64,000 nt of DNA from positions 62,001 to 126,000 of the forward strand of contig NZ_QZMN01000013.1 in the NCBI RefSeq assembly GCF_003702705.1, written 5' to 3'. The notes below the pieces were generated by a model. That model was not told where the DNA came from. It worked only from the letters and a program-made list of their open reading frames with translations, and ran no database searches. Below are positions 1 to 61,716 of this stretch, in pieces (position 1 is the first letter of the stretch; each line of letters begins with the position of its first letter). The translations under genes were made by a program, and so were the position numbers. This DNA comes from Ornithinimicrobium cerasi. Lineage in GTDB: Bacteria > Actinomycetota > Actinomycetes > Actinomycetales > Dermatophilaceae.

Positions 1-1016
1 GCCAGCAGCACGGTGTCTCCCGGGCCGACGTCGATCTTGTGGTCGCCGTTGGCCATCCGGGACAGCGCGGCCATCGGCTCGCCCTGGGACCCGGTGCTGA
101 TGAGGACCTGCTGCTCGTCGGGCAGCTGGGTGAGCCGGCCGAGGTCGACCAGCACCCCGTCCGGGACGCGCAGGTAGCCCAGGTCCTTGGCGATGCCCAT
201 GTTCCGGATCATCGAGCGGCCGACCATCGCGACCTTGCGGCCCGCCTCCTCGGCGGCGTCGAGCACCTGCTGCACCCGGTGCACGTGCGAGGCGAAGCAC
301 GCGACGATGATGCGCCGCTGCGCCTGGTGGAAGACCCGCTCGATCGCCGGGGTGATCTCGCGCTCCGGCGTGGTGAAGCCGGGCACGTGGGCGTTGGTGG
401 AGTCCGTCATGAACAGGTCGACGCCCTCCTCCCCCATCCGCGCGAACGCCCGGAGGTCGGTGATGCGCCCGTCCAGCGGCAGCTGGTCCATCTTGAAGTC
501 ACCGGTGTGCAGGACCGTCCCGCCCGAGGTCCGCACGAAGACCGCCAGCGCGTCCGGGATCGAGTGGTTGACCGCGACGAACTCGCAGTCGAAGGGACCC
601 AGCACCTCGCGGTCACCCTCGCGCACCACCAGGGTGAGGGGGGTGATCCGGTGCTCCTTGAGCTTGGCCGCCACCAGCGCGAGGGTGAGCCGGCTGCCGA
701 CGAGGGGTATGTCGTCCCTGAGGCGGAGCAGGTACGGCACCGCGCCGATGTGGTCCTCGTGACCGTGCGTCAGCACGACCGCGACCACGTCGTCGAGACG
801 GTCCTCGATGGGTCCGAAGTCGGGCAGGATGAGGTCGACGCCGGGGTGGTTCTCCTCCGGGAAGAGGACGCCGCAGTCGATGACCAGCAGCTTGCCCCGG
901 TGCTCCACGACCGCCATGTTGCGCCCGACCTCGCCCAGGCCGCCGAGCGGGATCACCCGGACGCCCCCCTCCTGGAGGGGACCGGGGGCGGTCAGCTCGG
1001 GGTGCGGATGACTCAT
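1..1016 (-). CDS. rnj: Ribonuclease J, N-terminal part (3' end beyond window)
   Basis: Metallo-beta-lactamase/beta-CASP RNase that processes and degrades mRNA with endo- and 5'-3' exonuclease activity. About 338 residues are visible. The sequence shows the metal motif THGHEDHIGA, then HTGDFKMD and MTDSTNAHVPG, and the beta-CASP stretch with FASHVHRVQQ and MSTGSQGEP. The C-terminal domain lies outside the window. I chose the ATG at 1016 because a -10 like TATCCT sits 6 nt upstream, suggesting a leaderless message. It lies downstream of the thyA/DHFR pair on the same strand but is separated from it by a hairpin. The call is firm; the gene is cut only by the window edge. Confidence 0.95.
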   Translation of the reverse strand, partial: MSHPHPELTAPGPLQEGGVRVIPLGGLGEVGRNMAVVEHRGKLLVIDCGVLFPEENHPGVDLILPDFGPIEDRLDDVVAVVLTHGHEDHIGAVPYLLRLRDDIPLVGSRLTLALVAAKLKEHRITPLTLVVREGDREVLGPFDCEFVAVNHSIPDALAVFVRTSGGTVLHTGDFKMDQLPLDGRITDLRAFARMGEEGVDLFMTDSTNAHVPGFTTPEREITPAIERVFHQAQRRIIVACFASHVHRVQQVLDAAEEAGRKVAMVGRSMIRNMGIAKDLGYLRVPDGVLVDLGRLTQLPDEQQVLISTGSQGEPMAALSRMANGDHKIDVGPGDTVLL

Positions 1017-1022
1017 GGCGGC

Positions 1023-1028
1023 AGGATA
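1023..1028 (-). promoter_or_regulatory. -10 element of rnj (leaderless geometry)
   Basis: TATCCT on the minus strand, 6 nt before the ATG at 1016. No clear -35 hexamer is visible. Confidence 0.5.
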
Positions 1029-1062
1029 TCGCCGCCCTCCCCCGCCCCCGGGAAGGAGAACA

Positions 1063-1105
1063 GTCGCGCTGCTACCCGCTCGGGGGGTCCAGGCAGCAGC
1101 GCGAC
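1063..1105 (-). terminator. Hairpin after the Nudix-DHFR gene
   Basis: Perfect 11-bp arms GTCGCGCTGCT and AGCAGCGCGAC flank a 21-nt loop, about 32 nt past the stop codon. There is no T-tract. It could be a terminator or a processing signal between this gene and rnj. Confidence 0.5.
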
Positions 1106-1136
1106 CACTGACTACATCGACCGGGCGGACGAAACG

Positions 1137-2156
1137 TTACGCACCAGTAGAGTGATCTGCGTCACTCCGCATGGGCCACCCTGCCGCGCCGGCGGCGGAC
1201 CGCTCCCACGTCACCCAGCCGAGGACGTCGCCGGACCCGGGCACCCGCGCGACCTCGCGCCATACCCGGGGGTCGATCTCGGGGAACCGGGTCCCTCCCG
1301 GCGGCGCCAGGCCGACCTCGGTGACCAGCAGGCGCGACGCGTGGTCGATCGTCTGCGCGTAGACCTCCCCGCCGCCGACGACGAACACCTCCCCGTCACC
1401 GGCGAGCGCCAGCGCCTCCTCCAGCGAGTGCGCGACCTCCGCACCGGGCGCGGTCCACGACCGCTGCCGGGTGATGACGATCGTGCGCCGGCCCGGGAGC
1501 GCCCGACCGATCGAGTCCCAGGTGCCACGCCCCATGAGCAGGGTCCCTCCCGTCGTCGTCCGCCGGAAGAAGCGCAGGTCCTCGGACAGGTGCCAGGGCA
1601 TCCGCGCACCGTCCCCGATGACGCCGTTGGTCCCGACGGCGGCGACGAGGGTCAGCCTCTGGTCGAAGCCGAGCGTGAGGAGCGTCGGGCCGGCGTCGCC
1701 GGCCGCCCCCCCGGGGACCTCGCGGCGCACGAGGACGTCGAGGGCCGCGCGCTCGTGGGGCACGACGTCGTCCGGCAGGGCGGCCAGCGGCCACCAGCGC
1801 AGCTCGGCCACCTTGCCCGGCTCCAGGGGGCTCGGCTCCCCCGACCACCGCCGCGTCGCGACGAACAGGTCGACCCGCTCCTCGGAGGGGCGGTGCACCG
1901 CGACCGTGCGGTGCACCGTCGCCACGTGCGCCAGGTCGGCGGGGTCCACCCCCACCCCGAGCTCCTCGGCGGCCTCCCGCGCCGCCGCCGCCAGCGCGCT
2001 CTCGCCGAGCTCGACGTGCCCGGCCGCACCGTGGGCCCAGCGCCCGTCCATGTAACCGGTGCCGCTCCGCAGCTGCAGCAGCACCTCCACCCCGTCGGGG
2101 CCCTCCCGCAGCAGGGCCACGTAGGCGGCGGGCACCACCTGGAACCGGGACGTCAT
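1137..2156 (-). CDS. folA: Nudix hydrolase - dihydrofolate reductase fusion
   Basis: A 339-residue single reading frame carrying two enzymes. Residues 1-150 are a Nudix domain with a complete Nudix box at 46-68 (GHVELGE, then REAAEELGV, fitting GX5EX7REUXEEXGU). Residues about 167-320 are a complete [38 protein letters not shown], and FVVGGGEVY at the NADPH site. DHFR regenerates tetrahydrofolate after thymidylate synthesis. The substrate of the Nudix half is unknown; dihydroneopterin triphosphate or oxidised nucleotides are plausible guesses. The start ATG at 2156 overlaps the thyA stop as ATGA, so the two are translationally coupled. Ordinary DHFR is about 160-180 residues, so the N-terminal half is a true extra domain. 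No frameshift is seen at the junction. Confidence 0.9.
1150..1167. promoter_or_regulatory. CRP/GlxR-like half-site pair in the 3' end of the DHFR gene
   Basis: GAGTGA-TCTGCG-TCACTC, a perfect inverted repeat containing GTGA-N6-TCAC, the core of CRP-family sites. It lies within the last codons of the Nudix-DHFR gene, about 135-150 bp upstream of rnj. It could be chance. Confidence 0.25.
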
Positions 2157-2974
2157 ACCGCGATCGGTGCCTTGATGGTCGGGGCCGCGACGTAGTCGCG
2201 CACCTGCACGTCCTCCAGCTCGAACGCGTCGATCTCGCGCACCAGGGGGTTGAGCCAGAGCGTCGGCAGCGGTCCCGGCTCGCGGGCGAGCTGCTGCTCG
2301 GCCTGGTCGAGGTGGTTGAGGTAGAGGTGCGCGTCGCCCAGCGTGTGCACGAAGTCCCGGGGGCGCAGGTCGGTCACCTGGGCGACCATGTGCGTCAGCA
2401 GCGCGTAGCTGGCGATGTTGAACGGCACCCCGAGGAAGGTGTCCGCGCTGCGCTGGTAGAGCTGGCAGGAGAGCCACCCGCGCCGGTCCTCGTCGTCGGC
2501 GGAGGCCGGGGCGACGTAGAACTGGAACATCGTGTGGCAGGGCGGCAGCGCCATCTGCCCGACCTCCGCGACGTTCCAGGCCGAGACGAGGTGGCGGCGC
2601 GAGTCCGGGTTGGTCCGCAGCCCCTGAACCACCCTGGCGATCTGGTCGACGGAGCCCCCGTCGGGGGTGGGCCAGGACCGCCACTGGTGCCCGTAGACCG
2701 GGCCGAGGTCGCCGTTCTCGTCCGCCCACTCGTCCCAGATCGAGATCCCGCGCTCCTGGAGCCAGCGCACGTTGGTGTCGCCGCGCAGGAACCACAGCAG
2801 CTCGCCGATCACCGACCTCAGGTGCAGGCGCTTGGTCGTCAGCGCCGGGAAACCCTGTGTCAGGTCGAACCGCATCTGGTGCCCGAAGACCGACAGGGTG
2901 CCGGTGCCGGTGCGGTCCTCCTTCTCGACGCCCTCGGTGCGGATCCGCTGCAGGAGGTCAAGGTATTGCCGCAT
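2153..2974 (-). CDS. thyA: Thymidylate synthase ThyA
   Basis: Converts dUMP to dTMP using methylene-tetrahydrofolate and releases dihydrofolate, which the downstream overlapping DHFR domain recycles. At 273 residues it has the usual ThyA length. It begins [11 protein letters not shown], has [11 protein letters not shown] at about 21-31, and has the nucleophile Cys146 in [12 protein letters not shown]. The folate-binding C terminus ends PTIKAPIAV. The ATG at 2974 has a TAGGCT -10 element 6 nt upstream, implying a leaderless transcript. It is divergent from the S9 peptidase gene, with their promoters back to back in under 60 bp. Confidence 0.97.
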
Positions 2975-2980
2975 GGGGGA

Positions 2981-3029: not shown

Positions 3030-4970
3030 GTGCAGCCCAGCGACCTGACCAAGATCCGCACCCTCTCCTCCCCCACCGTCTCGGCGGACGGGCGCGCCGT
3101 CGTCTACGTGGTCAGCCGGCCCGACGTGGACGAGAACCGCTACCGGAGCAGCCTCTGGCGGCTGCGGGTGGACGCCGAGGGGTCCCCGGAGGGCGACGCC
3201 GTGCGCCTGACCCGCTGCACCCGCGACTCCTCGCCGGTCCACTCCCCCGACGGCACCCTCGTCGCCTTCCTCCGGGCCGGCGAGGACGGTCCGCCACAGC
3301 TCCACGTGCTGCCCGCCGGGGGCGGAGACGCCCGCCGGCTCACCGAGCACAAGCTCGGGGTGAGCGAGCCCGTCTGGTCCCCGGACGGCCGGCGCATCGC
3401 GTATGCCGCGCGCGTCCCGGAGGAGGGCCGGTACGGGACCGACGACAAGGTCAAGCCGGTCCAGGAGGCCCCCCGCCTCATCGAGCACAGCCGCTACCTC
3501 TCCGACGGCCTCGGCTACCTCCTGGACCGGCCGAGCAAGATCTTCGTCGTCGACCTCGACGCGCTGCCCGCCGACGACGAGCCCGACGCCGACGCCCTCC
3601 CGGAGCCGACGCAGCTGACGACCGGGGACGGCGACGACTCCGGCCCCGTCTGGCTGGCGCCGGACCGGGTCGGGTTCGTGGCGGCTCGCGACGGCCGGGG
3701 CGCCTGGCGGCCCGACACCCTCGTGTCCGACCTGTGCTCGGTCGACCTGCGCGGAAAAGGGTTCCGGCGTCACACCGACGGCACGGCCTCGGTGGGCGGG
3801 GCCCTCGTGAGCGCCGACGGCACCGTCGTCTACTCCGCCGGGGACCTCGGCGCGAGCGGCCAGGACTTCGTGGCGCGCAACTCGGTGCTGCGGGACCTCG
3901 GCCGGCCGGAGGCGCCGCTGACGGACGCCGAGACCGACCACCTGGCGTGCGCGCCGGCGCTCGGCGCGGAGGGCACGCTCGTGGTGGCGCTGGAGCACCG
4001 CGGCGACACGCTCGTGCGCGACGTCGGCACCGGGCACGTCCTGCTGGACGGCCACGTCAGCGTGTCCGCCGTCGCGGTCGGGGGCGGGGTGGTGGCCGCG
4101 GTCGCGGGGACGCGCACGTCATACTCCGAGCTGTTCCTGGGACGTGTCGGCGGGCGCCTCGCACCGGTGACCGACCTGGCGCTGCACCTCACCGGCACGG
4201 CCGTGCCGCTCGAGCCCGAGGAGCTGTCGACCGAGGCCCCGGACGGCTACCCGGTCCACGGCTGGCTCGTCCGACCCACCTCCGAGGCGCCCCGCGCCGC
4301 GGGTCACCCGGTCGTGCTGATGATCCACGGCGGGCCGTACACGCAGTACTCGGGCAACCTCTTCGACGAGGCGCAGGTGCTTGCGGGAGCGGGGTACGCC
4401 GTGGTGCTCGGCAACCCGCGCGGCGGGTCCGGCTACGGCGCGGCGCACGGGCGGGCGGTCAAGGAGGCGATCGGCACCGTGGACGTGGCGGACCTCACGG
4501 CGCTGCTCGACCACGCGCTCACCCTGCCCGGTCTGGACGACTCACGGGTCGGGGTGATGGGCGGGTCCTACGGCGGGCTCATGACCACCTGGCTGGTCGG
4601 GCACAGCGACCGGTTCACCGCCGCGATCAGCGAACGCGCGGTCAACGCCTGGGACTCCTTCGCGGGGACCTCGGACATCGGGTGGTTCTTCGGGGACGAG
4701 TACGTCGGCGCCCACGCGCACGAGCAGTCGCCGCTGACGTGGGCCGACTCCATCCGCACCCCCACCCTCGTCATCCACTCCGAGCGGGACTTCCGGTGCC
4801 CCCTCGAGCAGGGGCAGCGCCTCTACGCACGGCTGCGGCGCAACGGGGTATCCACCAAGCTGCTCGTCTTCCCGGGCGAGGGTCACGAGCTCTCGCGCTC
4901 GGGTCAGCCCCGGCACCGCGTCCAGCGCTTCGAGCACATCCTGGCGTGGTGGGACGAGCACCTGCGGTGA
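3030..4970 (+). CDS. S9 family serine peptidase (acylaminoacyl/dipeptidyl peptidase type)
   Basis: A cytosolic oligopeptidase of 646 residues with an N-terminal beta-propeller (WD40-like SPDG repeats such as VWSPDGRRIAYAA) and a C-terminal alpha/beta hydrolase. The catalytic triad is readable: Ser513 in GGSYGGLMT, Asp in ERDFRCPLEQG, His in GEGHELSRSG. MIHGGPYTQYS matches the oxyanion region. No signal peptide is seen. An in-frame GTG at 2988 would add 14 residues, but the TACGCT -10 element lies between the two starts, so 3030 is preferred. It probably recycles small peptides; the specificity cannot be read from sequence. It is followed by thrE on the same strand. Confidence 0.93.
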   Translation: MQPSDLTKIRTLSSPTVSADGRAVVYVVSRPDVDENRYRSSLWRLRVDAEGSPEGDAVRLTRCTRDSSPVHSPDGTLVAFLRAGEDGPPQLHVLPAGGGDARRLTEHKLGVSEPVWSPDGRRIAYAARVPEEGRYGTDDKVKPVQEAPRLIEHSRYLSDGLGYLLDRPSKIFVVDLDALPADDEPDADALPEPTQLTTGDGDDSGPVWLAPDRVGFVAARDGRGAWRPDTLVSDLCSVDLRGKGFRRHTDGTASVGGALVSADGTVVYSAGDLGASGQDFVARNSVLRDLGRPEAPLTDAETDHLACAPALGAEGTLVVALEHRGDTLVRDVGTGHVLLDGHVSVSAVAVGGGVVAAVAGTRTSYSELFLGRVGGRLAPVTDLALHLTGTAVPLEPEELSTEAPDGYPVHGWLVRPTSEAPRAAGHPVVLMIHGGPYTQYSGNLFDEAQVLAGAGYAVVLGNPRGGSGYGAAHGRAVKEAIGTVDVADLTALLDHALTLPGLDDSRVGVMGGSYGGLMTTWLVGHSDRFTAAISERAVNAWDSFAGTSDIGWFFGDEYVGAHAHEQSPLTWADSIRTPTLVIHSERDFRCPLEQGQRLYARLRRNGVSTKLLVFPGEGHELSRSGQPRHRVQRFEHILAWWDEHLR

Positions 4971-5001: not shown

Positions 5002-6273
5002 GTGCCGACCGAGGTGACGCCGGAGCGATCGCGCCAGCTGCTGGCCTGGCTGGGGGCTGGGCTCCTCGCGGGCGGCATGCCCACCCAGGAGGTCGAGGAG
5101 GACGTCCGGCAGGCGGCCGGCGCGCTCGGTCACCCCCGGGCGCAGGTTGCCTGCCTGCCCCGTGGACTTCACGTCGCTCTCGCCCCCGGTGAGCCGTCCA
5201 CCTTCGAGCAGGTCGACGGGACCGTGCGGCTGGACCAGCTGGCGGACGTGTCGACCGTCCTGGCCGGCCTGCGGGCCGGCCGGATGCCGGTCGAGGACGC
5301 CCTGGCCCGTCTGGGTGCGCTGCGCGCCACGCCGCACCGGTATGCCGTCCCCGGCCTGGCGGCGGGGGGCGTGCTGTCAGGGGCCGGCATCGCCCTGGTC
5401 CTGGCGCCAGCATGGCCCTCGGTACTCTTCGCGGCGCTGGTCGCGCCCGTGACGGTGCTGCTCATGGTGCTCTCCGGCCGCTACCGCACGGTCGCAACCC
5501 TCACCCCGCTGCTCGCGGGTTTCATCGCCTCCGTGACCGCCTTCTCGGCGGCGTCCGCCGGCCTGGTCCCGGCCCCGTTGTGGACCCTCGTCGCCCCGAT
5601 CGCGGTGCTGCTCCCGGGCGCGACCCTCGTCACCGGCCTGGTCGAGCTGGCGGCCGGGTCGATGGTGGCCGGCACCTCACGTCTGGGTCACGGCTCCGTT
5701 CAGCTGCTGCTCTTCGCCCTCGGCGTGGGAGCGGCGGCGGCCCTGCTGGACGTGCCCCCGTCCCTGCTCGACCCCTCGCGCCCGGTCGAGCTCGGCTGGT
5801 GGGCGCCGCTGCTCGGTGTCGCGGTCGTCACGGTCGCGATCTCGCTCATGGAGGGGCTGCGGCTGGCGCTGATGCCCTGGGTGATGCTCACCGCCCTGGC
5901 GACCTACCTGGCCCAGCTGCTGGGGCAGACGGTCGCGGACGCCCGGTGGGCCGGAGCTTTCGTCGGTGCCATGGTGGCGATCCTCGTGGCGACGCTCGTG
6001 GAGCTGGCCCGGCCTGCCCTGCCGAGATCCGTGGTCTTCCTCCCGAGCTTCTGGCTGCTCGTGCCGGGGTCCTTCGGTCTCATCTCGGTCACCCAGCTCG
6101 AGGTAGGACCGGAGGCGGCCCTCAGCTCCCTCGGTGCGGTGACGCTGCTCCTGGCCGCGATCGCGCTCGGCGTCGTGGTCGGTGCGAGCCTGACCTTCCC
6201 CCTGCGGGCCGCCGCGCGACGAAGGGGCCTGCTGCACATGCTCCGCCTGGTCCGCCGCGGCCGCCGACGTTAG
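5002..6273 (+). CDS. thrE: Threonine/serine exporter family protein (ThrE)
   Basis: Integral membrane protein of 423 residues in the family of Corynebacterium ThrE, which exports L-threonine and L-serine by proton-driven antiport. A soluble N-terminal part (about 1-115, with GMPTQEVEEDV) precedes about ten hydrophobic segments that fall into two sets of five, the ThrE and ThrE_2 domains fused. The tail is basic (RLVRRGRRR). Two in-frame GTG codons exist, at 4996 and 5002; the GGAAGG at 4990-4995 spaces better from 5002. It ends convergently with a 4-bp overlap into the VWA gene. Family membership is clear, substrate is inferred. Confidence 0.9.
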   Translation: MPTEVTPERSRQLLAWLGAGLLAGGMPTQEVEEDVRQAAGALGHPRAQVACLPRGLHVALAPGEPSTFEQVDGTVRLDQLADVSTVLAGLRAGRMPVEDALARLGALRATPHRYAVPGLAAGGVLSGAGIALVLAPAWPSVLFAALVAPVTVLLMVLSGRYRTVATLTPLLAGFIASVTAFSAASAGLVPAPLWTLVAPIAVLLPGATLVTGLVELAAGSMVAGTSRLGHGSVQLLLFALGVGAAAALLDVPPSLLDPSRPVELGWWAPLLGVAVVTVAISLMEGLRLALMPWVMLTALATYLAQLLGQTVADARWAGAFVGAMVAILVATLVELARPALPRSVVFLPSFWLLVPGSFGLISVTQLEVGPEAALSSLGAVTLLLAAIALGVVVGASLTFPLRAAARRRGLLHMLRLVRRGRRR

Positions 6274-7703
6274 TCCTCGCCGCGGTAGTACTCGCTCCAG
6301 CTGCGGTCGGCCTGCTCGTAGACCTCTGCCCGGTCGGCGTCCGCCCGGTCGTCGGAGGCGACCCAGTTCTCCGAGGCGGTGTCGTTGCCGTAGTTCCAGA
6401 TCGGCGAGCTGCGGTCGGCGAACCACTGCCAGATCGCCGAGGAGGTGTCGCTGTCGACGAGACCCTGGCGCTCCAGCTCCCGGGCAAGGTCCTTGCCCGC
6501 CTGGGACTCCACGTTGCTCGTCGTCTTGATCCGCTCACCGACGTCGTCGGCCTCGATCTTGTTGGCCTCGCCGGCCGTCGTGATGCGGCTGGCCTCCTCC
6601 TGGCGCCAGCGGGCCCAGGCCTGATCCATCCGGCGACGCTCCTGCTCCCAGTACGCGTCGAGCTCGGCGCCGGACCCCGCGGCGGTGAACTCGCCGCCCC
6701 CGGCGTCGGCGATCGCCGCGAGCGCCGCCTGGTCGGCGTCCCCGGTCTGGAAGCCGAGGACGTTGACCACCGGCCGTATGTCGGTCCCCGCCAGCGCCGT
6801 GGCCGCGGTCACGGGGTCGCCCCCGCAGGTCTCCAGGCCGTCGGTGACGACGTAGACGATGCTGTCGGTGGCCCCGGCGGGGATGTCGCCCTCCGCGTCG
6901 TCGATCGCCCTGGCGAGCGGGGTCCAGCCGACGGGGGCGACCTCGTCCATGGCGTCGGACAACCCGCCATGGTCCGAGCTGGTCCCCTCGAAGACGACCT
7001 CGCTCGCCGTGCACGAGTCCGCCTTACCGGCCTCGTCGTTGCTGCCCTCGTGCCCGTAGACCCGCAGCGACACGGTGCTGCTGTCCGGCAGCTGGCCGAC
7101 GAACGCCTCGATCGCTGCCTTCGCCTCGTCCATCCGCGTGCCGGCGGACCCTGCGGCCGCCATGGAGCCGCTGGCGTCCAGGACGAGCGCGTAGTGGTTG
7201 GTTCCGACGGCCTCCGTGGGCGGAGGCCCCGCCGTGGGCGCGGCCGAGCCGTCACCGGTGCTGGTGTCGAAGAAGACGGTGTCGCGCACGTCCTGCACGT
7301 AGTCCCCGTGGACCTGGGCGAGCACCGCACCGATCCACTCCTGCTCGGTCTGCGGGGCGAGCGCCGCGGCGGCTGCGGCGGCCTGCTCCCGCTCGGTGTC
7401 GCTCAGGAGCGCCTCGGCCGGGGTGTCGGCCTGCTTGGCGAAGGGGCCCGGCTCGAAGAGCATCGTGCGCTCGAGCGCGGTCAGCTCCCGGGGCGGGTCC
7501 GTGAGCTCCACGGGCGTCAGCCAGCGGGTGAGCGGGTCACCCGCGGCCCGCCCCACCGGGGGGGACCCGGTCGTCGTGACCGCCGCGTCGGCCGGAGGCG
7601 TCGACGACGCCACCGCCTCGTCGGTGGTGGGCTCCTGCCCGCCTCCCGCGCACCCGGTGAGCACCAGCGCGCACGCCAGCACGGACGTCATACCTCGAAC
7701 CAT
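6270..7703 (-). CDS. VWA-domain lipoprotein
   Basis: A secreted, lipid-anchored protein of 477 residues. The signal peptide ends in the lipobox LTGC with Cys18, followed by a Thr/Ala/Pro-rich linker. A von Willebrand factor A domain occupies about 168-330, with MIDAS motif DASGS at 176-180 and Asp288 in VVTDGLETC. The C-terminal 150 residues are charged and helical with WARWRQEEASRI and many Trp/Asp residues; I do not recognise them. A Met at residue 5 is an alternative start, but GGAGGGG is well spaced for the ATG at 7703. A TAGGGT -10 element lies about 37 nt upstream. The role is unknown; such proteins often bind divalent cations and partner proteins. Confidence 0.85.
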   Translation of the reverse strand: MVRGMTSVLACALVLTGCAGGGQEPTTDEAVASSTPPADAAVTTTGSPPVGRAAGDPLTRWLTPVELTDPPRELTALERTMLFEPGPFAKQADTPAEALLSDTEREQAAAAAAALAPQTEQEWIGAVLAQVHGDYVQDVRDTVFFDTSTGDGSAAPTAGPPPTEAVGTNHYALVLDASGSMAAAGSAGTRMDEAKAAIEAFVGQLPDSSTVSLRVYGHEGSNDEAGKADSCTASEVVFEGTSSDHGGLSDAMDEVAPVGWTPLARAIDDAEGDIPAGATDSIVYVVTDGLETCGGDPVTAATALAGTDIRPVVNVLGFQTGDADQAALAAIADAGGGEFTAAGSGAELDAYWEQERRRMDQAWARWRQEEASRITTAGEANKIEADDVGERIKTTSNVESQAGKDLARELERQGLVDSDTSSAIWQWFADRSSPIWNYGNDTASENWVASDDRADADRAEVYEQADRSWSEYYRGED

Positions 7704-7765: not shown

Positions 7766-9352
7766 TCAGACGGGTGGGATGGAGCGGTGCCGGGTCGAGA
7801 AGTGGCGGTCGCGGCGGGCGGCGTAGCGCAGCCGGCGCACGACCTCCTCGCGCAGGTCCTCGGGCTCGACGATCGCGTCGATGACGAGGTCGGCCGCGAG
7901 GCGCTCGAGGTCCACGTCCTCGACATACTCCGCCCGACGCGCCTCGACGAACGCCTCGCGCTCGGCGGGGTCGCTGATCTCGGCGATCTTGTTGGCGTAG
8001 ACCGCGTTGACCGCGGCCTCGGGGCCCATCACCGCGATCCGCGCGGTGGGCAGCGCGATCGTCGCCTCCGGCCCGAACCCCGGCCCGCCCATCGCGTAGA
8101 GCCCGGCGCCGTAGGCCTTGCGCACCACGACGCACAGCTGGGGCACCGTCGCCTCCGACACCGCGGACACCATCTTGGCGCCGTGCCGGATGATGCCGCC
8201 GCGCTCGACCTCGGAGCCGATCATGAAGCCGGGCACGTCGGCGAGGTAGAGCAGCGGGATGCCGTAGGCATCGCACAGCCAGATGAACCGCGACGCCTTG
8301 TCGGCGGAGTCGGTGAACAGCACCCCGCCCTTGACCGCCGAGTTGTTGGCCACGATGCCGACGCTCTGCCCCTCCACCCGGCCCAGACCCACGACGAGCT
8401 CGGCGGCGAAGAGCGGCTTGACCTCGAAAAAGCTGTCCGCGTCGACGAGCCCCTCGATGACCTCGTGGACGTCGAAGGGCACCGACTCGGCCTCCGGCAC
8501 GGTGTCGCGGGTCAGCGGCACGGCCGGCGCCTCCGCCTCGTAGTGGGGCACCGGGTCGTGCCAGGTCTCGGGCAGGTAGGAGAAGAAGTGGCGGGCGAGG
8601 TCGATCGCCTCGGCGTCGTCCCCGGCCAGCAGGTCACCCACGCCCGAGACGGTGCAGTGCATCCGCGCGCCGCCCATCTCCTCGAGGCTGACCTTCTCGC
8701 CCACGACCATCTCGGCCATCCGGGGGCTGCCGAGGTACATCGAGGCGTTGCCCTCGACCATGATCACGAGGTCGGTGAAGCTGGGGATGTAGGCTCCGCC
8801 GGCAGCGCTCGGCCCGAACAGGCAGCAGATCTGCGGCACCCTGCCGGACAGCGCGACCTGGTTGTGGAAGATCCGTCCGGCGCCCCGGCGTCCGGGGAAG
8901 AGGTCGACCTGGTCGGTGATCCGGGCGCCGGCGGAGTCGACGAACCAGAACAGCGGCAGCTCCTCGCGCAGCGCCGCCTCGGTGGCCCGGATCATCTTCT
9001 CGACGGTCCGCGCGCCCCATGACCCGGCCTTGACCGTCGGGTCGTTGGCCACCACGATCGCGGGTCGGCCCTCGACCTCGCCCCGCCCCGTCACGACGCC
9101 GTCGGCGGGCAGCCCCTCGGCCGTGGCGTTGGCGTAGCGCCCGTCCTCGACGAACGTCCCCTCGTCGAAGAGCAGGGCGATGCGGTCCCGGACGTACAGC
9201 TTGCCCTGGGCGTCGAGCTTCGCGCGCGCCTTCGCGGGCGGCTCCGCCGAGGCCCGGTATGCCGTCTCCAGCCTGGTCCGCAGCTCCCCGACGCGGGGGT
9301 CGGGGTGGGCGTTGGCGCCTGCGGGAGGTGGGGTCGACGGCATACCGCTCAT
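7766..9352 (-). CDS. Acyl-CoA carboxylase beta (carboxyltransferase) subunit, AccD1/LiuB-like
   Basis: A 528-residue biotin-dependent carboxyltransferase that moves CO2 from biotinyl-BCCP to an acyl-CoA. Both crotonase-fold halves are present: FGPSAAGGAYIPSF in the first, and LYLADVPGFMIG with GAGLYAMGGPGFGPEATIALP in the second, the oxyanion-hole loops. It lies 13 nt downstream of an acyl-CoA dehydrogenase gene. A carboxyltransferase next to an acyl-CoA dehydrogenase and a MerR regulator is the layout of leucine/branched-chain catabolism (AccD1-FadE19 in mycobacteria, Liu genes in proteobacteria), so methylcrotonyl-CoA is the likeliest substrate. Propionyl- or acetyl-CoA cannot be excluded. 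A second Met at 9343 is an alternative start. Confidence 0.88.
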   Translation of the reverse strand: MSGMPSTPPPAGANAHPDPRVGELRTRLETAYRASAEPPAKARAKLDAQGKLYVRDRIALLFDEGTFVEDGRYANATAEGLPADGVVTGRGEVEGRPAIVVANDPTVKAGSWGARTVEKMIRATEAALREELPLFWFVDSAGARITDQVDLFPGRRGAGRIFHNQVALSGRVPQICCLFGPSAAGGAYIPSFTDLVIMVEGNASMYLGSPRMAEMVVGEKVSLEEMGGARMHCTVSGVGDLLAGDDAEAIDLARHFFSYLPETWHDPVPHYEAEAPAVPLTRDTVPEAESVPFDVHEVIEGLVDADSFFEVKPLFAAELVVGLGRVEGQSVGIVANNSAVKGGVLFTDSADKASRFIWLCDAYGIPLLYLADVPGFMIGSEVERGGIIRHGAKMVSAVSEATVPQLCVVVRKAYGAGLYAMGGPGFGPEATIALPTARIAVMGPEAAVNAVYANKIAEISDPAEREAFVEARRAEYVEDVDLERLAADLVIDAIVEPEDLREEVVRRLRYAARRDRHFSTRHRSIPPV

Positions 9353-11011: not shown

Positions 11012-11049
11012 CCCGCCGGACCTGCGCGCCCACGCCATACCCCTGCCAC

Positions 11050-15366: not shown

Positions 15367-15378
15367 GAGGAGCCGGGT

Positions 15379-24670: not shown

Positions 24671-24780
24671 TCGGGCTGGCGTCCCACTCTCCGGCCGACC
24701 ATCCACGGCAACGAGGCGTCCACGTCATACCCCGTCAGCGGCACCCGCCCCGGAGCAGGGACGCACGGACCGGACCCGGG

Positions 24781-25782: not shown

Positions 25783-25788
25783 ACTGTA
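25783..25788 (-). promoter_or_regulatory. -10 element of the SpoIIM-like gene (leaderless geometry)
   Basis: TACAGT on the minus strand, 6 nt before the GTG at 25776. It overlaps a GTATGNCG octamer at 25786-25793. Confidence 0.5.
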
Positions 25789-34546: not shown

Positions 34547-34556
34547 GGCATACCTC

Positions 34557-51147: not shown

Positions 51148-52740
51148 TCAGTGGGCGAAGTGGCGGGTGCCGGTGAGGTAGAACGTCACGCCGGCGGCGC
51201 GCGCGGCCGCCACGACCTCCTCGTCCCGGACCGAACCGCCCGGGGAGACGACCGCGCGGACACCGGCGTCGAGGAGGACCTGCAGCCCGTCGGCGAAGGG
51301 GAAGAAGGCGTCCGAGGCGGCCACCGACCCGGCCGCCCGCTCCCCCGCCCGGCGGACCGCCAGGTGGCAGGAGTCGACCCGGTTGACCTGGCCCATGCCG
51401 ATGCCGACGCTGGCCCCGTCGGAGGCGAGCAGGATCGCGTTCGAGCGGGTCGCCCGGACCGCGCGCCAGGCGAACTGCAGGTCGGCCAGGGTGGCCTCGT
51501 CGCCGGGGTCGCCGACGGCGAGCCTCCAGTGCGAGGCGTCGTCACCCCCGCCCTCGACGACGGCGTCGACCGTGTCGACGGACTGCATGAGCATGCCTCC
51601 GGAGATGGGGCGCGACTCCACGCCACCCCGCCACGGGGCGGCGACCCGCAGGATCCTCAGGTTCTTCTTCTCCCGCAGCACCTCCAGCGCGTCCTCGTCG
51701 AACCCCGGCGCGACCACCACCTCGGTGAAGATGTCGCGCACCTGCTCGGCCATCGCCCGGGTCACCGGCCGGTTGGTGGCGATGATGCCGCCGAAGGCCG
51801 ACACCGGGTCGCACGCGTGCGCCTTGCGGTGCGCCTCCGCCACGTCGGCGCCGACCGCGATCCCGCACGGGTTGGCGTGCTTGACGACCGCGACGGTGGG
51901 ACGCTCCCCGTGGTCGTGCGCGGCGCGCAGGGCGGCGTCCGCGTCGACGTAGTTGTTGAACGACATGGCCTTGCCGCCCAGCTGCTCGGCCTGGGCCAGA
52001 CCGGGCGCGGGCTGGAAGCCGTTGGTGTACAGCGCCGCGCGCTGGTGCGGGTTCTCGCCGTACCGCAGCCCCTCGGCGCGGTCCCAGGTCGCGCCGACCC
52101 AGGCCGGGAAACCGGTCGAGCCCGAGGTGTCGGTGAGGACGTTGCCCATCCACGAGGCGACGTGCACGTCATACGTGGCGGTGTGCACGAACGCCTCGGC
52201 CGCCAGCTGCTGCCGTTCGGCGAGGGTGAACCCGCCGTCCGCCAGGGCCGCCACGACCCGGGGGTATGCCGTGGGGCTGGTCACCACCGCGACGCTGCGG
52301 TGGTTCTTGGCGGCGGCCCGGACCATGGAGGGGCCGCCGATGTCGATCTGCTCCACGCACGCGTCGGGGCCGGCGCCGGACATCACGGTGGCGGTGAAGG
52401 GGTAGAGGTTGCAGACGACCAGGTCGAACCCCTCGATCCCGAGCTCCGCGAGCTGACGGACGTGGTCGGGGTTGGTGGTGTCGGCCAGCAGACCCGCGTG
52501 GACGAGGGGGTGGAGGGTCTTGACGCGCCCGTCCAGGCACTCGGGGAAGCCGGTGAGCTCCTCGACCCTGGTCACGGCCAGCCCGAGGCTCTCGATGAGG
52601 GCGGCCGAGCCCCCGGTGGACACCAGGCTCACCCCGGCCGCGGCGAGGCCGCGCGCCAGGTCCTCCAGACCGGTCTTGTCGTGGACGGAGACGAGGGCGC
52701 GGCGGACGGGACGGCGCCCGTCGGGGGTGGAGGTGCTCAC
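51148..52740 (-). CDS. purH: AICAR transformylase / IMP cyclohydrolase
   Basis: A 530-residue enzyme for the last two steps of IMP synthesis. The N-terminal MGS-like cyclohydrolase domain ([39 protein letters not shown]) occupies about 1-150. The C-terminal transformylase domain has [28 protein letters not shown] and [10 protein letters not shown]. The GTG at 52740 has TACACT 8 nt upstream and lies back to back with the methyltransferase promoter. The frame continues upstream without homology. Confidence 0.96.
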
Positions 52741-53457: not shown

Positions 53458-54066
53458 TCAGGACGTGCGTCCCCGCGTGCCCCCGCGGGGACGCAGCGCC
53501 CCCGGCAGCTCCTCCACGAGCATCGCTCGCTCGACGACCTTGATGCGCGCGTGGAGGCTCTCCTCGGTGTCGCCGTCCCGGACCTCGACGGCCCGCTGGG
53601 CCAGGATCGGTCCGGTGTCCACCCCGGCGTCGACGCGGTGCAGGGTGCAGCCGGTGACCCTGACGCCGTGGGCGAGCGCGTCCCGCACGCCGTGGGCGCC
53701 GGGAAAGCTGGGCAGCAGGGCGGGGTGGGTGTTGACCACCTCGAACTCCTTCAGCACCGAGGGGCCGAGGATCCTCATAAAACCGGCGGAGACCACCGCC
53801 GCGGGGCGGTGCGCCGCGATCGCGGTGGCGAGGGCGAGGTCCCAGGCGGCCCGGTCCGCATGGTCGGCCGGCGCCACGACGAAGGTCGGTATGCCGTGCG
53901 CGCGGGCCCGGTCCAGGCCGGCGACGCCCTCCCGGTCGCTGCCGACGGCGACCACCTCGACGGGGTAGCCCGGGTCGTCGGCGGCGTCCAGGAGCGCCTG
54001 CAGCAGGGTGCCCGAGCCGGACACCAGGACGACGACGGCGTCGCGGGAGGGCGGCGGAGGTGGCAC
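53458..54066 (-). CDS. purN: Phosphoribosylglycinamide formyltransferase
   Basis: A 202-residue enzyme that transfers formyl from 10-formyl-THF to GAR in purine synthesis. FMRILGPSVLKEFEVVNTHPALLP carries the catalytic Asn and His, and GVDTGPILAQ carries the Asp. The phosphate loop reads VLVSGSGTLLQALL, with Leu where E. coli has Asn in GSN, a variation I believe is common in actinobacteria. The GTG at 54066 has TAGACT 6 nt upstream, which also contains the stop codon of the preceding DUF6350 gene. Confidence 0.94.
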   Translation of the reverse strand: MPPPPPSRDAVVVLVSGSGTLLQALLDAADDPGYPVEVVAVGSDREGVAGLDRARAHGIPTFVVAPADHADRAAWDLALATAIAAHRPAAVVSAGFMRILGPSVLKEFEVVNTHPALLPSFPGAHGVRDALAHGVRVTGCTLHRVDAGVDTGPILAQRAVEVRDGDTEESLHARIKVVERAMLVEELPGALRPRGGTRGRTS

Positions 54067-54078: not shown

Positions 54079-55410
54079 GGTTCGGGCCCTGGTCCCTGCC
54101 CGGGGCCTCCCCCGGAACGCGGTGCGCGCCCGCATGAGGTGCAGCACGCTGACGACGAGCACCGCGCCGACCGCGACCTCGGCGGTGAGCAGGCCGGCGA
54201 ACCTCCACGGCTGCACGCCGACGGTCCCCAGGAGCCCGGGGGTGAGCCCACCGGTCGACATCCAGCCGAGCAGGAGGGCCACGGCTCCGACGACGAGGGA
54301 GCCGAACAGCGCGATCTGCGTCTTGGTCCACCAGCTCGACAGCCGGGACGCCGCGCCGGCCGCCCGGTAGCCGAGCCAGCCGCCGGCCACGAGCGGCACG
54401 AGCGCCATCGCCCACAGCCCCGGCGGCAGGGCACCGGGCTCCGGGAGCGCCCCGAGGGCCGGCAGCACCGGGAGGTCACCGGGGGTGGACTCGGTCCAGC
54501 CGACGTGCACGGTCCCCACCTGGACCCCGGCGCCGGTCAGCCAGGACAGCGCCCAGACCATGACGTTGGGCAGGGCGAGCAGCTGGGCGACCGAGAGGAC
54601 TGCGGTGCCCACCACACCCGCGTCCAGGGTGTCGTAGAGGGTGAGCACCCGGTCCCCGCGGATGAGCAGGATCCCGACGACGAGCAGGAAGCACACGGCG
54701 GCCAGCCCCACCAGGACCTCGACCGCGGCGGGGACCCCGCGGCTGACCAGGACAGGCGTGCGGGCACGGACCCACCGCAGCCCGGCGTCGACCGCCGGAT
54801 GGTCGTCGCGGCGGTGCTCGACCCACCAGACGAGCACCACGCCGACCAGGGGGACGAGGACCGCGCCGGGCACCAGGCTGGGCAGCCAGACGGGAGCCAG
54901 CCCGAAGCTCGCCGTGTGGGCCAGGAGGAGGCCCGCGACGACATACCCGAGGACGAAGGCGGTGGCGTCCTCGCCGCCGAGCGCGTGCCACGCCGCCCGC
55001 CACCCGCCGATGCGCGGTACGCGTGCCATCACGTCGGGACGGTTGAGGACCACCTGGCGGGCGGCGTACCAGGTCAGCAGGACCAGCCCCGCGGTGAGGA
55101 TCAGGGGGGCCAGGACGACGTCGGCGTCGGCGGTGCGCACCTCGGCGCGGTGCGCCAGCGCCCAGAGGTCGACCGAGACCCCCGTCGTCTGCCAGAAGGT
55201 CGCGGTGCTGCGCTCGTCGGCCAGCCAGGTCAGCAGCGTCGGCAGCGCGACGGCGATGACGCCCAGGGCGACGCACGCCGCGCCCGCCACCATCGCGACG
55301 AGCAGCTCGAGCGAGCGGCCGAGCGTCAGGCCGGGGGTCGGGTCGGTGGCGGGGAGCTGGTCCGGGGCCGAGGTCTCGGGTCGCTGCAGCAGAGTCATGA
55401 CGCTGACCAT
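54076..55410 (-). CDS. DUF6350 multi-pass membrane protein
   Basis: A 444-residue protein with about ten to eleven hydrophobic helices (LLVAMVAGAACVALGVIAVAL, VVLAPLILTAGLVLLTWYAA, VLVPLVGVVLVWWVEHRR and others) and a short basic C terminus. DUF6350 proteins are actinobacterial membrane proteins that regularly precede purN; no transport or enzymatic motif is visible. A second Met at residue 5 is an alternative start. Confidence 0.83.
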   Translation of the reverse strand: MVSVMTLLQRPETSAPDQLPATDPTPGLTLGRSLELLVAMVAGAACVALGVIAVALPTLLTWLADERSTATFWQTTGVSVDLWALAHRAEVRTADADVVLAPLILTAGLVLLTWYAARQVVLNRPDVMARVPRIGGWRAAWHALGGEDATAFVLGYVVAGLLLAHTASFGLAPVWLPSLVPGAVLVPLVGVVLVWWVEHRRDDHPAVDAGLRWVRARTPVLVSRGVPAAVEVLVGLAAVCFLLVVGILLIRGDRVLTLYDTLDAGVVGTAVLSVAQLLALPNVMVWALSWLTGAGVQVGTVHVGWTESTPGDLPVLPALGALPEPGALPPGLWAMALVPLVAGGWLGYRAAGAASRLSSWWTKTQIALFGSLVVGAVALLLGWMSTGGLTPGLLGTVGVQPWRFAGLLTAEVAVGAVLVVSVLHLMRARTAFRGRPRAGTRART

Positions 55411-58247: not shown

Positions 58248-60770
58248 CTACAGCTTCTCCAGCGGGGCGACCCGGACGAGGAGGCGCTTCACGCCGGTCT
58301 CCCCGCCAAAGTCCACGTGGGCCATCGTGTGCTTGCCGGTCCCCTCGACCCGGACGACGGTGCCGAGCCCGAACGAGTCGTGGTTGACCCGGTCACCGGT
58401 CGACAGCCTCTCCAGCTCGGTGGTCTCGGCCTCGCTCCGCTCCCGGCGCTGCGCGCGGCCGCGCGGGTCGAGGCGCACGACGTCCGGCCGGCCGGCATAC
58501 CCTCCGGACCAGCCCGTCCCCTCCGAGGCCGATCGACGGCCGCCGAAGCTGGACCGGTCGGCGTCGGTGCGCTCCCAGGTGAGGAGTTCCTCGGGGATCT
58601 CGTCGAGGAAGCGGGACGGCGGGTGGTACTGGGGCGCGCCGAAGGCCGCCCTGCTCCCCGCGCGCGAGAGGTGCAGCTGCTCGCGGGCCCGGGTGATACC
58701 GACGTAGGCGAGGCGCCGCTCCTCCTCCAGCTCGCCGGGGTCGTCGAGGCTGCGCTGGTGCGGGAAGGTGCCGTCCTCGAGGCCGGTGAGGAAGACCACC
58801 GGGAACTCCAGCCCCTTGGCGGTGTGCAGGGTCATGAGCGTCACCACCCCCGACGACTCGTCGCCCTCGGGGATCTCGTCCGCGTCGGCGACGAGGGAGA
58901 CCTGCTCGAGGAAGTCGACGAGCCCGCCCTCGGGGTAGTTCTCGTCGAACTCGCGGGCGACCGAGACGAGCTCGGCGAGGTTCTCCACCCTGGTCTCGTC
59001 CTGGGGGTCCGGGCTGGCCCGCAGCTCGGCGAGGTAGCCGGACCGGTCGAGGATCGCCTCGAGGAGGTCGGCCACCCCGGCGTCCTCGTCCGCAGCGACC
59101 TGGCCCAGCTCCTCGAGCAGGGCGGTGAAGCCGGTGATCGCGGCGACCGACCGCGTCGCGATGGCCGGGGCGTCCCCGGCCCGGCCCAGGGCTGCGACGA
59201 AGGGGATCCGCTCCCGCTCGGCCAGCGCCGACACCGCGCCGACGGCCCGGTCCCCGATGCCTCGCTTGGGGGTGTTGAGGATGCGCCGCAGGTTGACGTC
59301 GTCGGCGGGGTTGGCGAGGACGCGCAGGTAGGCGAGCGCGTCCTTGACCTCCCGGCGCTCGTAGAACCGGGTGCCGCCGACCACCTTGTAGGGCAGCCCG
59401 GTGCGGACCAGCACCTCCTCCAGCGCCCGGGACTGGGCGTTGGTGCGGTAGAAGACGGCCACGTCACCGGGTCGCACGCCCCGCTCGTCCCCGAGCTGGT
59501 CGATCCGGCGGGCCACGAACGAGGCCTCGTCGTGCTCGCTGTCCGCGACGTAGCCGACGATCCGCCCGCCCTCTCCGGCGTCGGTCCACAGCCGCTTCTC
59601 GCGTCGGCCGGGGTTGCGCGCGATCACCGCGTTCGCGGCGGAGAGGATGGTGGCGGTGGAGCGGTAGTTCTGCTCCAGGAGGATCGTCCGGGCCTCGGGG
59701 TAGTCCTCCTCGAACTCGACGATGTTGCGGATCGTCGCGCCCCGGAAGGCGTAGATCGACTGGTCCGCGTCACCGACGACGCACAGCTCGGCGGGCGGGA
59801 GCGCCCGCTCGCCCCCGTCCACGATGTCGCCCAGGGTGCCGACCAGCTCCCGGACCAGCGCGTACTGCGCGTGGTTGGTGTCCTGGTACTCGTCGACCAG
59901 CACGTGGCGGAAGCGGCGGCGGTAGTGCTCCCGCACGTCGGGGAACGCGCGGAGCAGGTGGACGGTGGTGGAGATGATGTCGTCGAAGTCGAGGGCGTTG
60001 GCCGCCCGCAGCCGCCGCTGGTAGAGGGTGTAGGCCTCGGCGACCTTCTGCTCGTAGGGGTTGTTGCCGACCTGCGCGGCGAAGGCCTCGTCGTCGACCA
60101 GCTCGTTCTTGGCGTTGGACACCTTCGCCAGGAACGCCCGCGCGGGGTAGCGCTTGGGATCGAGGTCGAGGTCGCGGATGACCATGCCCATCAGCCGCTG
60201 GCTGTCGGCCGCGTCGTAGATGGAGAACGAGGAGCGCAACCCGGCGGTCTGCGCCTCCCGGCGCAGGATGCGCACGCAGGCCGAGTGGAAGGTGGAGACC
60301 CACATGACCTTCGCGCGGGGGCCGACGAGGGCCTGCACCCGCTCGCGCATCTCGGCGGCCGCCTTGTTGGTGAAGGTGATGGCGAGGACCTGGCCGGGGT
60401 GCACGTGCCGGTGCGCCAGCAGGTAGGCGACCCGGTGCGTGAGCACGCGCGTCTTGCCGGAGCCGGCGCCCGCGACGATGAGCAGCGGGCTGCCCTCGTG
60501 GGTGACCGCCCGCCGCTGCGGCTCGTTCAGGCCCGCGAGCAGCTCCGCCACGGAGCGGGAGCCCTGCGCGTCCTGGTCCTCCCCTGCCTCGGGGGCCCAC
60601 CCTGTCGCCCGTCCGGCACCCTGCGGGGCGTCGCGCCCCTCGACCGCCCAGGCCGGCACGCCCCGGGAGTCGACGACGTGGCCGTCGTCCTCCGGGTGGC
60701 CGCTGGCCGCCCCCGGGGGCAACGACGGCAGCGGGAGGTCGAAGGACAGGTGGTCGAAGAGGCTGCTCAT
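58248..60770 (-). CDS. pcrA: ATP-dependent DNA helicase PcrA/UvrD
   Basis: An 840-residue superfamily 1A 3'-5' helicase for repair and replication restart. The Q motif is LNEPQRRAV, Walker A is AGAGSGKT at about 100-107, and TFTNKAAAEMRERV is motif Ia. HVLVDEYQDTNHAQY is motif II, GDADQSIYAFRGA motif III, QNYRSTATIL motif IV, LMTLHTAKGLEFPVVFL motif V, and AYVGITRAREQL motif VI. A 75-residue low-complexity N-terminal extension precedes the core. The C terminus has the Tudor-like element VNHDSFGLGTVVRVEG. TAGGAT lies 9 nt before the ATG. Confidence 0.96.
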   Translation of the reverse strand: MSSLFDHLSFDLPLPSLPPGAASGHPEDDGHVVDSRGVPAWAVEGRDAPQGAGRATGWAPEAGEDQDAQGSRSVAELLAGLNEPQRRAVTHEGSPLLIVAGAGSGKTRVLTHRVAYLLAHRHVHPGQVLAITFTNKAAAEMRERVQALVGPRAKVMWVSTFHSACVRILRREAQTAGLRSSFSIYDAADSQRLMGMVIRDLDLDPKRYPARAFLAKVSNAKNELVDDEAFAAQVGNNPYEQKVAEAYTLYQRRLRAANALDFDDIISTTVHLLRAFPDVREHYRRRFRHVLVDEYQDTNHAQYALVRELVGTLGDIVDGGERALPPAELCVVGDADQSIYAFRGATIRNIVEFEEDYPEARTILLEQNYRSTATILSAANAVIARNPGRREKRLWTDAGEGGRIVGYVADSEHDEASFVARRIDQLGDERGVRPGDVAVFYRTNAQSRALEEVLVRTGLPYKVVGGTRFYERREVKDALAYLRVLANPADDVNLRRILNTPKRGIGDRAVGAVSALAERERIPFVAALGRAGDAPAIATRSVAAITGFTALLEELGQVAADEDAGVADLLEAILDRSGYLAELRASPDPQDETRVENLAELVSVAREFDENYPEGGLVDFLEQVSLVADADEIPEGDESSGVVTLMTLHTAKGLEFPVVFLTGLEDGTFPHQRSLDDPGELEEERRLAYVGITRAREQLHLSRAGSRAAFGAPQYHPPSRFLDEIPEELLTWERTDADRSSFGGRRSASEGTGWSGGYAGRPDVVRLDPRGRAQRRERSEAETTELERLSTGDRVNHDSFGLGTVVRVEGTGKHTMAHVDFGGETGVKRLLVRVAPLEKL

Positions 60771-60779
60771 GCTGCGGCC

Positions 60780-60785
60780 ATCCTA
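60780..60785 (-). promoter_or_regulatory. -10 element of pcrA
   Basis: TAGGAT on the minus strand, 9 nt before the ATG at 60770. Confidence 0.4.
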
Positions 60786-60880
60786 GGCGCGCCCACCGAC
60801 ACGACCTGTCCCTCGTCCCCAGCCCCTCGACATACCCTTGACCGCGTGATCTCTTCCCCCGCGACCCAGGACGGACGCGT

Positions 60881-61273
60881 GTGAACGGCTCCTCCGCCTA
60901 CCTCGACCCCCCCACCCTGGTGCTGCTCCTGGGCGGGATGGCCGTGGCCCTGGTGACCCTCGTGGCGGGGTTGAACGGGCGGGCGCCGGGCCGCGTCACG
61001 GTGGGTCTGACCGCCCTGCTCCAGGCGGCGGTGCTGGCCTACGCCGGCCTCTACCTCCTCCGGCAGCTGCGCGGCGAGTCGCCCGTGGGTCCGGCGTGGG
61101 AGCTGTGGGCCTACCTGGTCACGGTGCTCCTCCTGCCCGCGCTGGCCCTCGTCTGGGCGCGTGAGGAGCGCACGCGCTGGAGCACCTTCGTGCTGGCGGT
61201 GGCGGCGTTCACCGTCGCCGTCATGGCGGCCCGCAGCGCGCAGATCTGGTACGGCGTCGGGATGCTCCCGTGA
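60881..61273 (+). CDS. Small membrane protein, four helices
   Basis: A 130-residue protein with hydrophobic segments LVLLLGGMAVALVTLVAGL, VGLTALLQAAVLAYAGLYLL, WAYLVTVLLLPALALVW and TFVLAVAAFTVAVMAAR. I do not recognise a family. It overlaps the next gene as GTGA and forms a three-gene operon with it and the LPG-synthase-like protein, so it may assist that protein. Confidence 0.75.
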   Translation: MNGSSAYLDPPTLVLLLGGMAVALVTLVAGLNGRAPGRVTVGLTALLQAAVLAYAGLYLLRQLRGESPVGPAWELWAYLVTVLLLPALALVWAREERTRWSTFVLAVAAFTVAVMAARSAQIWYGVGMLP

Positions 61274-61716
61274 GGCGTCCGGCCGCGGACGACGGCGACC
61301 GCCGGCACGGCCCGGGCCGTGTCATCCTCGCCCTCTACCTCATCTTCGTCATCGGGACCGTGTCCCGGTCGGCCGCGCAGATCTCCACCCGCTTCGACGA
61401 GGCACCCCTGGCCTACTCCCTCTCCGCCCTGGCCGCCGCGGTGTATGTCGTCGCGCTGGTCTCCCTGTCCCGCGCCGGGCGCCGGGCCTGGTGGGTGAGC
61501 CTCGTGGCGCTGTCGGTCGAGCTGGCGGGGGTGCTCGTCGTGGGCACCTGGAGCTACGTCGCGCCCGAGATGTTCCCGGACGCCACCGTGTGGAGCCACT
61601 TCGGGCGGGGCTACCTCTTCATCCCGCTGGTCCTGCCGGTGGCCGGCCTGTGGTGGCTGCTGTCCGAGCGCGGGGCGCGGGCACGCCCGGTGCCTGTCGA
61701 GCAGGGGAGCCGGTGA
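61270..61716 (+). CDS. Small membrane protein, four helices
   Basis: A 148-residue protein. A charged N terminus (RRPAADDGDRRHG) is followed by helices VILALYLIFVIGTV, LAYSLSALAAAVYVVALVSL, WWVSLVALSVELAGVLVVGTW and YLFIPLVLPVAGLWWLL. No motif is recognised. It overlaps both neighbours by 4 bp, so it is translationally coupled to them. Confidence 0.75.
   Translation: MRRPAADDGDRRHGPGRVILALYLIFVIGTVSRSAAQISTRFDEAPLAYSLSALAAAVYVVALVSLSRAGRRAWWVSLVALSVELAGVLVVGTWSYVAPEMFPDATVWSHFGRGYLFIPLVLPVAGLWWLLSERGARARPVPVEQGSR

Follow-up and report, generated by a model that had tools for sequence, protein, structure and literature searches.

Why does one short word recur so often in a 64-kb stretch of the Ornithinimicrobium cerasi genome? 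The stretch (contig C14:62001-126000 of the draft genome G000, which totals 3.83 Mb; hereafter the window) carries 41 copies of the octamer GTATGNCG between positions 707 and 61450, 20 on the forward and 21 on the reverse strand, and this recount bears out the original prediction, which had placed the copies both in genes and in gaps. It is proposed here that GTATGNCG is probably a genome-wide uptake or self-recognition sequence of Tad-ComEC natural transformation that acts on each strand separately, a reading drawn from sequence comparison and held with moderate confidence.

Abundance, form and placement of the word

The over-representation of GTATGNCG is confirmed and is larger than first claimed. 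In 100 dinucleotide-preserving shuffles of the window, the word appeared 2.66 times on average and 7 times at most, and a codon-position-aware second-order Markov model gave 2.14 copies; the original chance estimate of about five was therefore too generous. The pentamer GTATG continues as NCG in 41 of 43 cases, again as first counted, with exceptions at 55453 (forward strand) and 38793 (reverse strand). The whole genome holds 2,119 copies (1081 forward and 1038 reverse), compared with 181 (97 and 84) of the reversed word used as a control. Genome counts also lie far above the Markov expectation with which the prediction had proposed to compare them, at 282 copies versus 5.8 expected in 406 kb of the genome (codon-aware model, sites masked before fitting). 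Maximum-order Markov tests were uninformative for GTATGNCG, because its subwords are themselves inflated.

Sequence preferences extend beyond the core. Among 306 sites in 446 kb, G occurs at position -1 in 228 and at -2 in 175, C fills the N position in 197, and T follows the core in 154, the extended preference being GGTATGCCGT; GGTATGNCGT was observed 121 times, with 0.9 expected from a first-order model. Words that differ from GTATGNCG by one mismatch sum to 586 versus 565.8 expected (codon-aware model, sites masked, the same 406 kb), and this joint closeness to expectation argues for a sharp recognition boundary. Single near-miss words that deviate are GTATGNAG (10 versus 1.9 expected) and GCATGNCG (82 versus 136.4 expected).

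The same 306 sites are distributed over genes (239), intergenic regions (52) and gene edges (15), and all six reading frames are used. With classes assigned by a simple gene caller made for this analysis, site density is 1.38 per kb in intergenic and 0.585 per kb in genic DNA, a 2.4-fold difference. No strand bias of GTATGNCG was detected in any of 14 segments (all p >= 0.42), which confirms the earlier argument that the word does not resemble the FtsK-orienting polar sequences (KOPS); these were rejected as an explanation for lack of polarity along the replichore.

Positions of GTATGNCG turn over fast between species while its density is maintained. In congeners at about 80% identity, 23 of 57 aligned sites were retained in G119 and 26 of 57 in G127; in G133, with just 18 kb of alignment, it was 1 of 5. 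Seven one-mismatch control words were kept at 7-50% in G119, compared with 40% for the motif, so single sites show no unusual conservation.

Strand-polar spacing

Orientation alternates between neighbouring sites, and this polarity suggests that the process that reads the word distinguishes the strands. Same-orientation neighbours account for 434 of 1205 pairs and for less than half in each of 12 segments (11 genomes), which are not independent, several coming from one genus; in the window the figure is 16 of 40. Without the segment of G069, a genome with the dialect word GTACGNCG described below, the count is 382 of 1062; alternation in that segment is inflated because close divergent GTACGNCG pairs are in excess. 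Such pairs less than 30 bp apart show a 12-fold excess in G069 (24 versus 1.9) and probably arise from CGNCGTACGNCG-like palindromes.

In five segments from the genus itself, same-orientation pairs lie at 0.19-0.75 of expectation in bins of 30-1000 bp, with convergent and divergent pairs around 1 there (0.32 to 1.34). The pooled 30-1000 bp ratio for four own-genus segments is 0.49 for same-orientation and 1.02 for opposite-orientation pairs; 300 control words gave a mean same-orientation ratio of 1.13, and none was as low as 0.49. The depletion is less marked in G003 and G070, the genomes with the highest densities. Gaps between sites are even, with a pooled coefficient of variation of 0.92 and 4 of 12 segments below 5% of uniform simulations; for a 280-kb contig the coefficient is 0.83, a value equally low in 1 of 150 control words. 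Terminator-like inverted pairs were rejected as an origin of GTATGNCG, as 11 GTATGNCG segments contain no excess of neighbours within 60 bp. We know of no report of a strand-specific spacing rule for any other genomic word, though the literature was searched for one only briefly.

Distribution, dialects and the Tad cluster

The distribution of the word was followed in 149 genomes from the family and in a class sample of 373 genomes, 365 of them outside the family, and genomes with at least 0.25 GTATGNCG per kb were designated motif-dense. Within the family, density is bimodal; 81 of the 149 genomes are motif-dense, and the highest value, in G070, is about one copy per 0.6 kb. Judged by eye, none of the 365 class-sample genomes outside the family reaches 0.25 per kb.

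Scanning of 15 motif-poor genomes with the codon-aware model revealed dialects in six, two of which (CGAAGGGG) are uncertain. The dialect GTACGNCG occurs in G069 and G024 and, less strongly, in G023, and GGATGCCG occurs in G026 (70 versus 7.9 expected, 24 of them intergenic). CGAAGGGG, over-represented in G144 and G037, is unrelated in sequence to GTATGNCG and is possibly something else; it is mostly intergenic in G037 (21 of 36) and is also found at Janibacter and Marihabitans loci. No clear word was found in the motif-poor genomes G041, G014, G045, G049, G083, G084, G088 and G058, and G057 was ambiguous; G083 gave a weak GGGATGNCC signal (19 versus 4.0). The first four of these genomes are without the tadA gene of the Tad cluster described below. 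In another family, GTACGNCG is enriched in G201 (117 versus 30.6) and G282 (132 versus 24.9) under the codon-aware model, and G282 alternates in GTACGNCG orientation (39 of 131 same-orientation). Other counts outside the family were 60 versus 34.6 in G286, 34 versus 22.4 in G512, 22 versus 22.0 in G160, and 56 versus 30.5 in G335; raw class-wide GTACGNCG ratios overstate the dialect, because codon usage explains much of the excess in four of the six outside genomes. G286 is also enriched in the palindrome CCGTACGG (50 versus 7.1), whose form resembles the highly iterated palindrome 1 (HIP1).

With regard to the competence machinery, the search for ComEC and a Tad pilus that had been suggested at the outset detected ComEC in 145 and the Tad T2SSF domain in 146 of the 149 family genomes, the comEC of O. 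cerasi itself being interrupted. PilM was present in 5 of 149, with one strong full-length match, and the type IV pilus was rejected as the apparatus on this ground. The O. cerasi genome encodes a Tad cluster at C14:13355-17964 (tadA, tadB, tadC, flp-like, tadE, tadF and tadG), about 44 kb from the window, and its tadA is found, whole or partial, in 131 of the 149 genomes. Motif-dense genomes comprise 78 of the 131 with tadA versus 3 of the 18 without it, namely G047, G087 (73% complete) and G092, which was classed as lacking tadA since its match is another ATPase type at 36% identity. The Fisher p value, not tree-corrected, is 7.4e-4 at 0.25 per kb and ranges from 8.6e-4 to 4.2e-3 at thresholds of 0.15, 0.2 and 0.3 per kb. 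Six genera lack tadA throughout, and all 13 of their sampled genomes are below 0.13 per kb. Two word-bearing genomes without an intact tadA, G282 and G037, keep decayed tadA remnants. In the class sample, GTACGNCG-rich families have tadA, but so do 10 of 12 genomes of genus g89, where the raw ratio is mostly about two.

Word density thus tracks one Tad/Flp cluster that resembles the competence pilus of Micrococcus luteus, the link to uptake being correlative. It was reported that disruption of tad open reading frames or comEC in M. luteus abolishes or strongly lowers transformation (PMC4322843). The M. luteus system (tad-1, tad-2, comEA/comEC) is likewise an actinobacterial combination of Tad and ComEC, and its TadE N-terminus appears similar by eye; the term "uptake sequence" does not occur in PMC4322843. 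By analogy, TadE, TadF and TadG are candidates for the surface receptor of the word.

A complete-looking prophage (G000:C66:47800-88165) interrupts the comEC of O. cerasi; PHROGs families are matched by six of its proteins (integrase, single-strand binding, terminase, portal, major head and tape-measure), and its 40.4 kb hold a single site, right at the border, compared with 17 in 34.6 kb of flanking DNA. ComEC matches begin at profile position 27-30 in G000, G080, G095, G117 and G049, the insertion in G000 being the one examined. An element within tadA of G143 (G143:C1:2353531-2424095) has 13 sites in 70.6 kb; the flanks, with 19 in 29.4 kb, are richer, yet the element still exceeds its model expectation of 5.3. 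The tadA gene is split around residues 196-242 in G143, G137, G028, G146, G122, G007 and G135, only a single part was detected in G017, and the gene is likewise broken in G225 and G264 from another family; a Walker A-like motif lies at residues 203-210, around which the breaks recur. In G088, G069 and G026, and possibly at loci L168 and L141, tadC appears cut short near its 3′ end, with other DNA, some of it from mobile elements, after it. Large serine recombinases (Pfam Resolvase + Recombinase) are located at the junctions of the O. cerasi comEC, G143 tadA (at one end of the insert) and G088 tadC (directly after the gene). Mobile elements that inactivate competence genes have been described (PMC4774983), and the Tad cluster is regarded as a competence pilus mainly because the insertions mirror such targeting and because of the M. 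luteus genetics (PMC4322843). The present cases resemble the elements of PMC4774983 in that a prophage lies in comEC and elements lie in pilus genes, and differ in their targets, the tadA and tadC genes of a Tad pilus, and in the large serine recombinase that marks all three insertions studied.

The sites of the window are listed in the table. One of them falls in a UvrD/PcrA-type helicase gene (window 58248-60770); nine more window proteins that were scanned look like ordinary housekeeping proteins or are unassigned (carboxylase subunits, methylmalonyl-CoA mutase, PurH).

Table. Octamer sites in the 64-kb window, with strand and gene context
Word	Position	Strand	Context
GTATGTCG	707..714	+	antisense in gene
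GTATGGCG	1258..1265	-	sense in gene
GTATGACG	2151..2158	-	sense
GTATGCCG	3401..3408	+	sense
GTATGACG	4117..4124	-	antisense
GTATGCCG	5340..5347	+	sense
GTATGTCG	6776..6783	+	antisense
GTATGACG	7686..7693	-	intergenic or gene edge
GTATGTCG	7921..7928	-	sense
GTATGCCG	9257..9264	+	antisense
GTATGCCG	9338..9345	-	sense
GTATGGCG	11033..11040	-	intergenic
GTATGGCG	12030..12037	+	sense
GTATGCCG	13488..13495	-	sense
GTATGTCG	15377..15384	+	gene edge (classed intergenic)
GTATGTCG	18892..18899	+	sense
GTATGACG	20464..20471	-	antisense
GTATGTCG	22084..22091	+	sense
GTATGACG	24723..24730	-	intergenic
GTATGACG	25786..25793	+	intergenic
GTATGCCG	26532..26539	+	sense
GTATGCCG	27747..27754	-	sense
GTATGCCG	29148..29155	-	antisense
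GTATGCCG	30477..30484	+	sense
GTATGGCG	31139..31146	+	sense
GTATGTCG	32967..32974	-	sense
GTATGCCG	33991..33998	+	sense
GTATGCCG	34546..34553	-	intergenic or gene edge
GTATGACG	42051..42058	-	sense
GTATGCCG	44250..44257	-	sense
GTATGCCG	44380..44387	+	antisense
GTATGTCG	46386..46393	+	sense
GTATGCCG	46560..46567	+	sense
GTATGCCG	49521..49528	-	sense
GTATGACG	52167..52174	-	sense
GTATGCCG	52264..52271	+	antisense
GTATGCCG	53889..53896	+	antisense
GTATGTCG	54939..54946	-	sense
GTATGCCG	58493..58500	-	sense, inside UvrD/PcrA-type helicase gene
GTATGTCG	60828..60835	-	intergenic
GTATGTCG	61443..61450	+	sense

A probable uptake sequence and its rivals

The word behaves like an uptake sequence because it is dense without fixed positions, is rare in the prophage, has clade dialects and is linked to Tad. 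The original uptake interpretation is partly supported, in that it agreed with most of the sequence-level tests run (density, strand balance, frames, intergenic excess, scarcity in a prophage, positional turnover, dialects and the Tad/ComEC association). Briefly, cells with a Tad/Flp pilus and ComEC would import word-bearing DNA more readily, and biased uptake together with recombination would accumulate copies and hold them at even spacing. Because only opposite-orientation neighbours are tolerated close by, each strand seems to need no more than one copy in about 1 kb. We infer uptake, a receptor, and processing of the word-carrying strand; recognition or processing would be polar and would act on the strand imported in single-stranded form. 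Since ComEC passes a single strand (PMC4774983), a strand-wise uptake bias is one way to polar spacing.

Such a signal would resemble the DNA uptake sequences (DUS) of Neisseriaceae and the uptake signal sequences (USS) of Pasteurellaceae, whose features (in part after PMC1939737) are these: a short non-palindromic word in thousands of copies, equal on both strands, genic and denser between genes, evenly spaced (Karlin, via PMC1939737), with clade dialects and a competence apparatus. Density, strand balance, frame use with intergenic excess, dialects and encoded competence machinery were all found here, and rarity in acquired elements was seen in two elements only. The present case differs in that the phylum is monoderm, a Tad/Flp pilus takes the place of the type IV pilus, and same-orientation neighbours are depleted. 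Among the literature matches listed, judged by titles and the beginnings of abstracts, there was no uptake sequence from Actinomycetota.

A Chi-like signal is the main rival, though an unlikely one, in which AdnAB (or RecBCD) would read the word in one orientation and switch to recombination, a nearby same-orientation copy being redundant. Its polar action would account for both the same-orientation depletion and the tolerated opposite pairs, and it is consistent with rarity in prophage and with words that are specific to clades; Chi sites (E. coli RecBCD, Bacillus AddAB) are rare in mobile DNA, and GTATGNCG is likewise a polar octamer. However, GTATGNCG lacks strand bias in 14 segments, whereas Chi of E. 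coli, in 650 kb (13 of the seventeen 50-kb stretches from 100001 to 950000), is biased 119 to 39. Chi also shows no depletion of same-orientation pairs, with 36 versus 24.3 expected at 30-1000 bp and 1.62 of expectation at 30-2000 bp, where 38 control words average 1.35. RecC (PF04257) does not follow the motif, being found in 25 of 81 motif-dense genomes versus 35 of 68 others, so that Chi for RecBCD, one of the alternatives first raised, is disfavoured and was rejected with 56 of the 81 lacking a RecC match. No AdnA- or AdnB-like protein was recovered by regular expression in the retrieved DNA stretches, which is no measure of adnAB distribution, and a Chi-like signal leaves the pilus-cluster association unexplained.

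Less likely still is a site for a nucleoid-structuring or repair protein that has no part in uptake, spaced for chromosome organisation. Even gaps are what it predicts, but on a simple binding site the relative orientation of neighbours should have no effect, and positional turnover and prophage depletion are better explained by a signal under drive. A HIP1-like genome mark or methylation target, with abundance shaped by modification and repair bias, is improbable to a further degree. HIP1 of cyanobacteria shares the very high density and patchy phylogeny, but is palindromic, which GTATGNCG is not, and we know of no polar spacing for it; mutation bias alone cannot deplete same-orientation pairs up to 1 kb, and near-miss words show no collective shift. 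Neither a nucleoid protein nor methylation alone explains the strand-specific spacing. Codon or codon-pair usage has a negligible chance of being the cause: sense frame 2, with its Tyr codon, is the most used (107 of 306), but occurrence in six frames and in intergenic DNA, which departs from the single-frame enrichment first considered as an objection, and the shortfall of the codon-aware model refute it for GTATGNCG.

Several observations weigh against a Tad-ComEC uptake sequence. ComEC and some Tad cluster do not discriminate, because they are near-universal, and the comEC of the strain itself is broken. G047 and G273, in which neither tadA nor a remnant was found, nevertheless carry a word, and motif-dense G092 has no more of tadA than an N-terminal fragment at 46% identity (residues 7-91). 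Conversely, 53 of the 131 tadA-bearing genomes are not GTATGNCG-dense, and tadA-bearing G083, G084, G088 and G058, less surely G057, are without a clear dialect, tadC of G088 being interrupted. G201, dense in GTACGNCG and with tadA present, does not alternate (52 of 116). Polar spacing also appears unlike Haemophilus influenzae USS, since uptake there is independent of sequence orientation (PMC1939737). Confidence in the uptake reading is held at a moderate level because, among other reasons, motif-poor genomes with the pilus exist. More tentatively, GTATGNCG may be the first uptake signal in a Gram-positive phylum, operating via ComEC and a Tad/Flp pilus; its words would have diversified into dialects across Actinomycetes, and each strand, independently of the other, would carry a copy about every 1 kb, since the word would be read on the imported strand.

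To our knowledge, uptake sequences are known from two Gram-negative families only, and GTATGNCG would, if the reading is true, be a third, independent, monoderm case. Genera that differ in word, dialect and pilus offer a natural experiment for the receptor and for maintenance by biased uptake, and the spacing rule, being strand-specific, gives a quantitative hint of the mechanism. An uptake role would also point to natural transformability in many actinobacteria, with DNA passing chiefly between kin, and to a silencing of this exchange by phages and other elements that insert into comEC, tadA and tadC.

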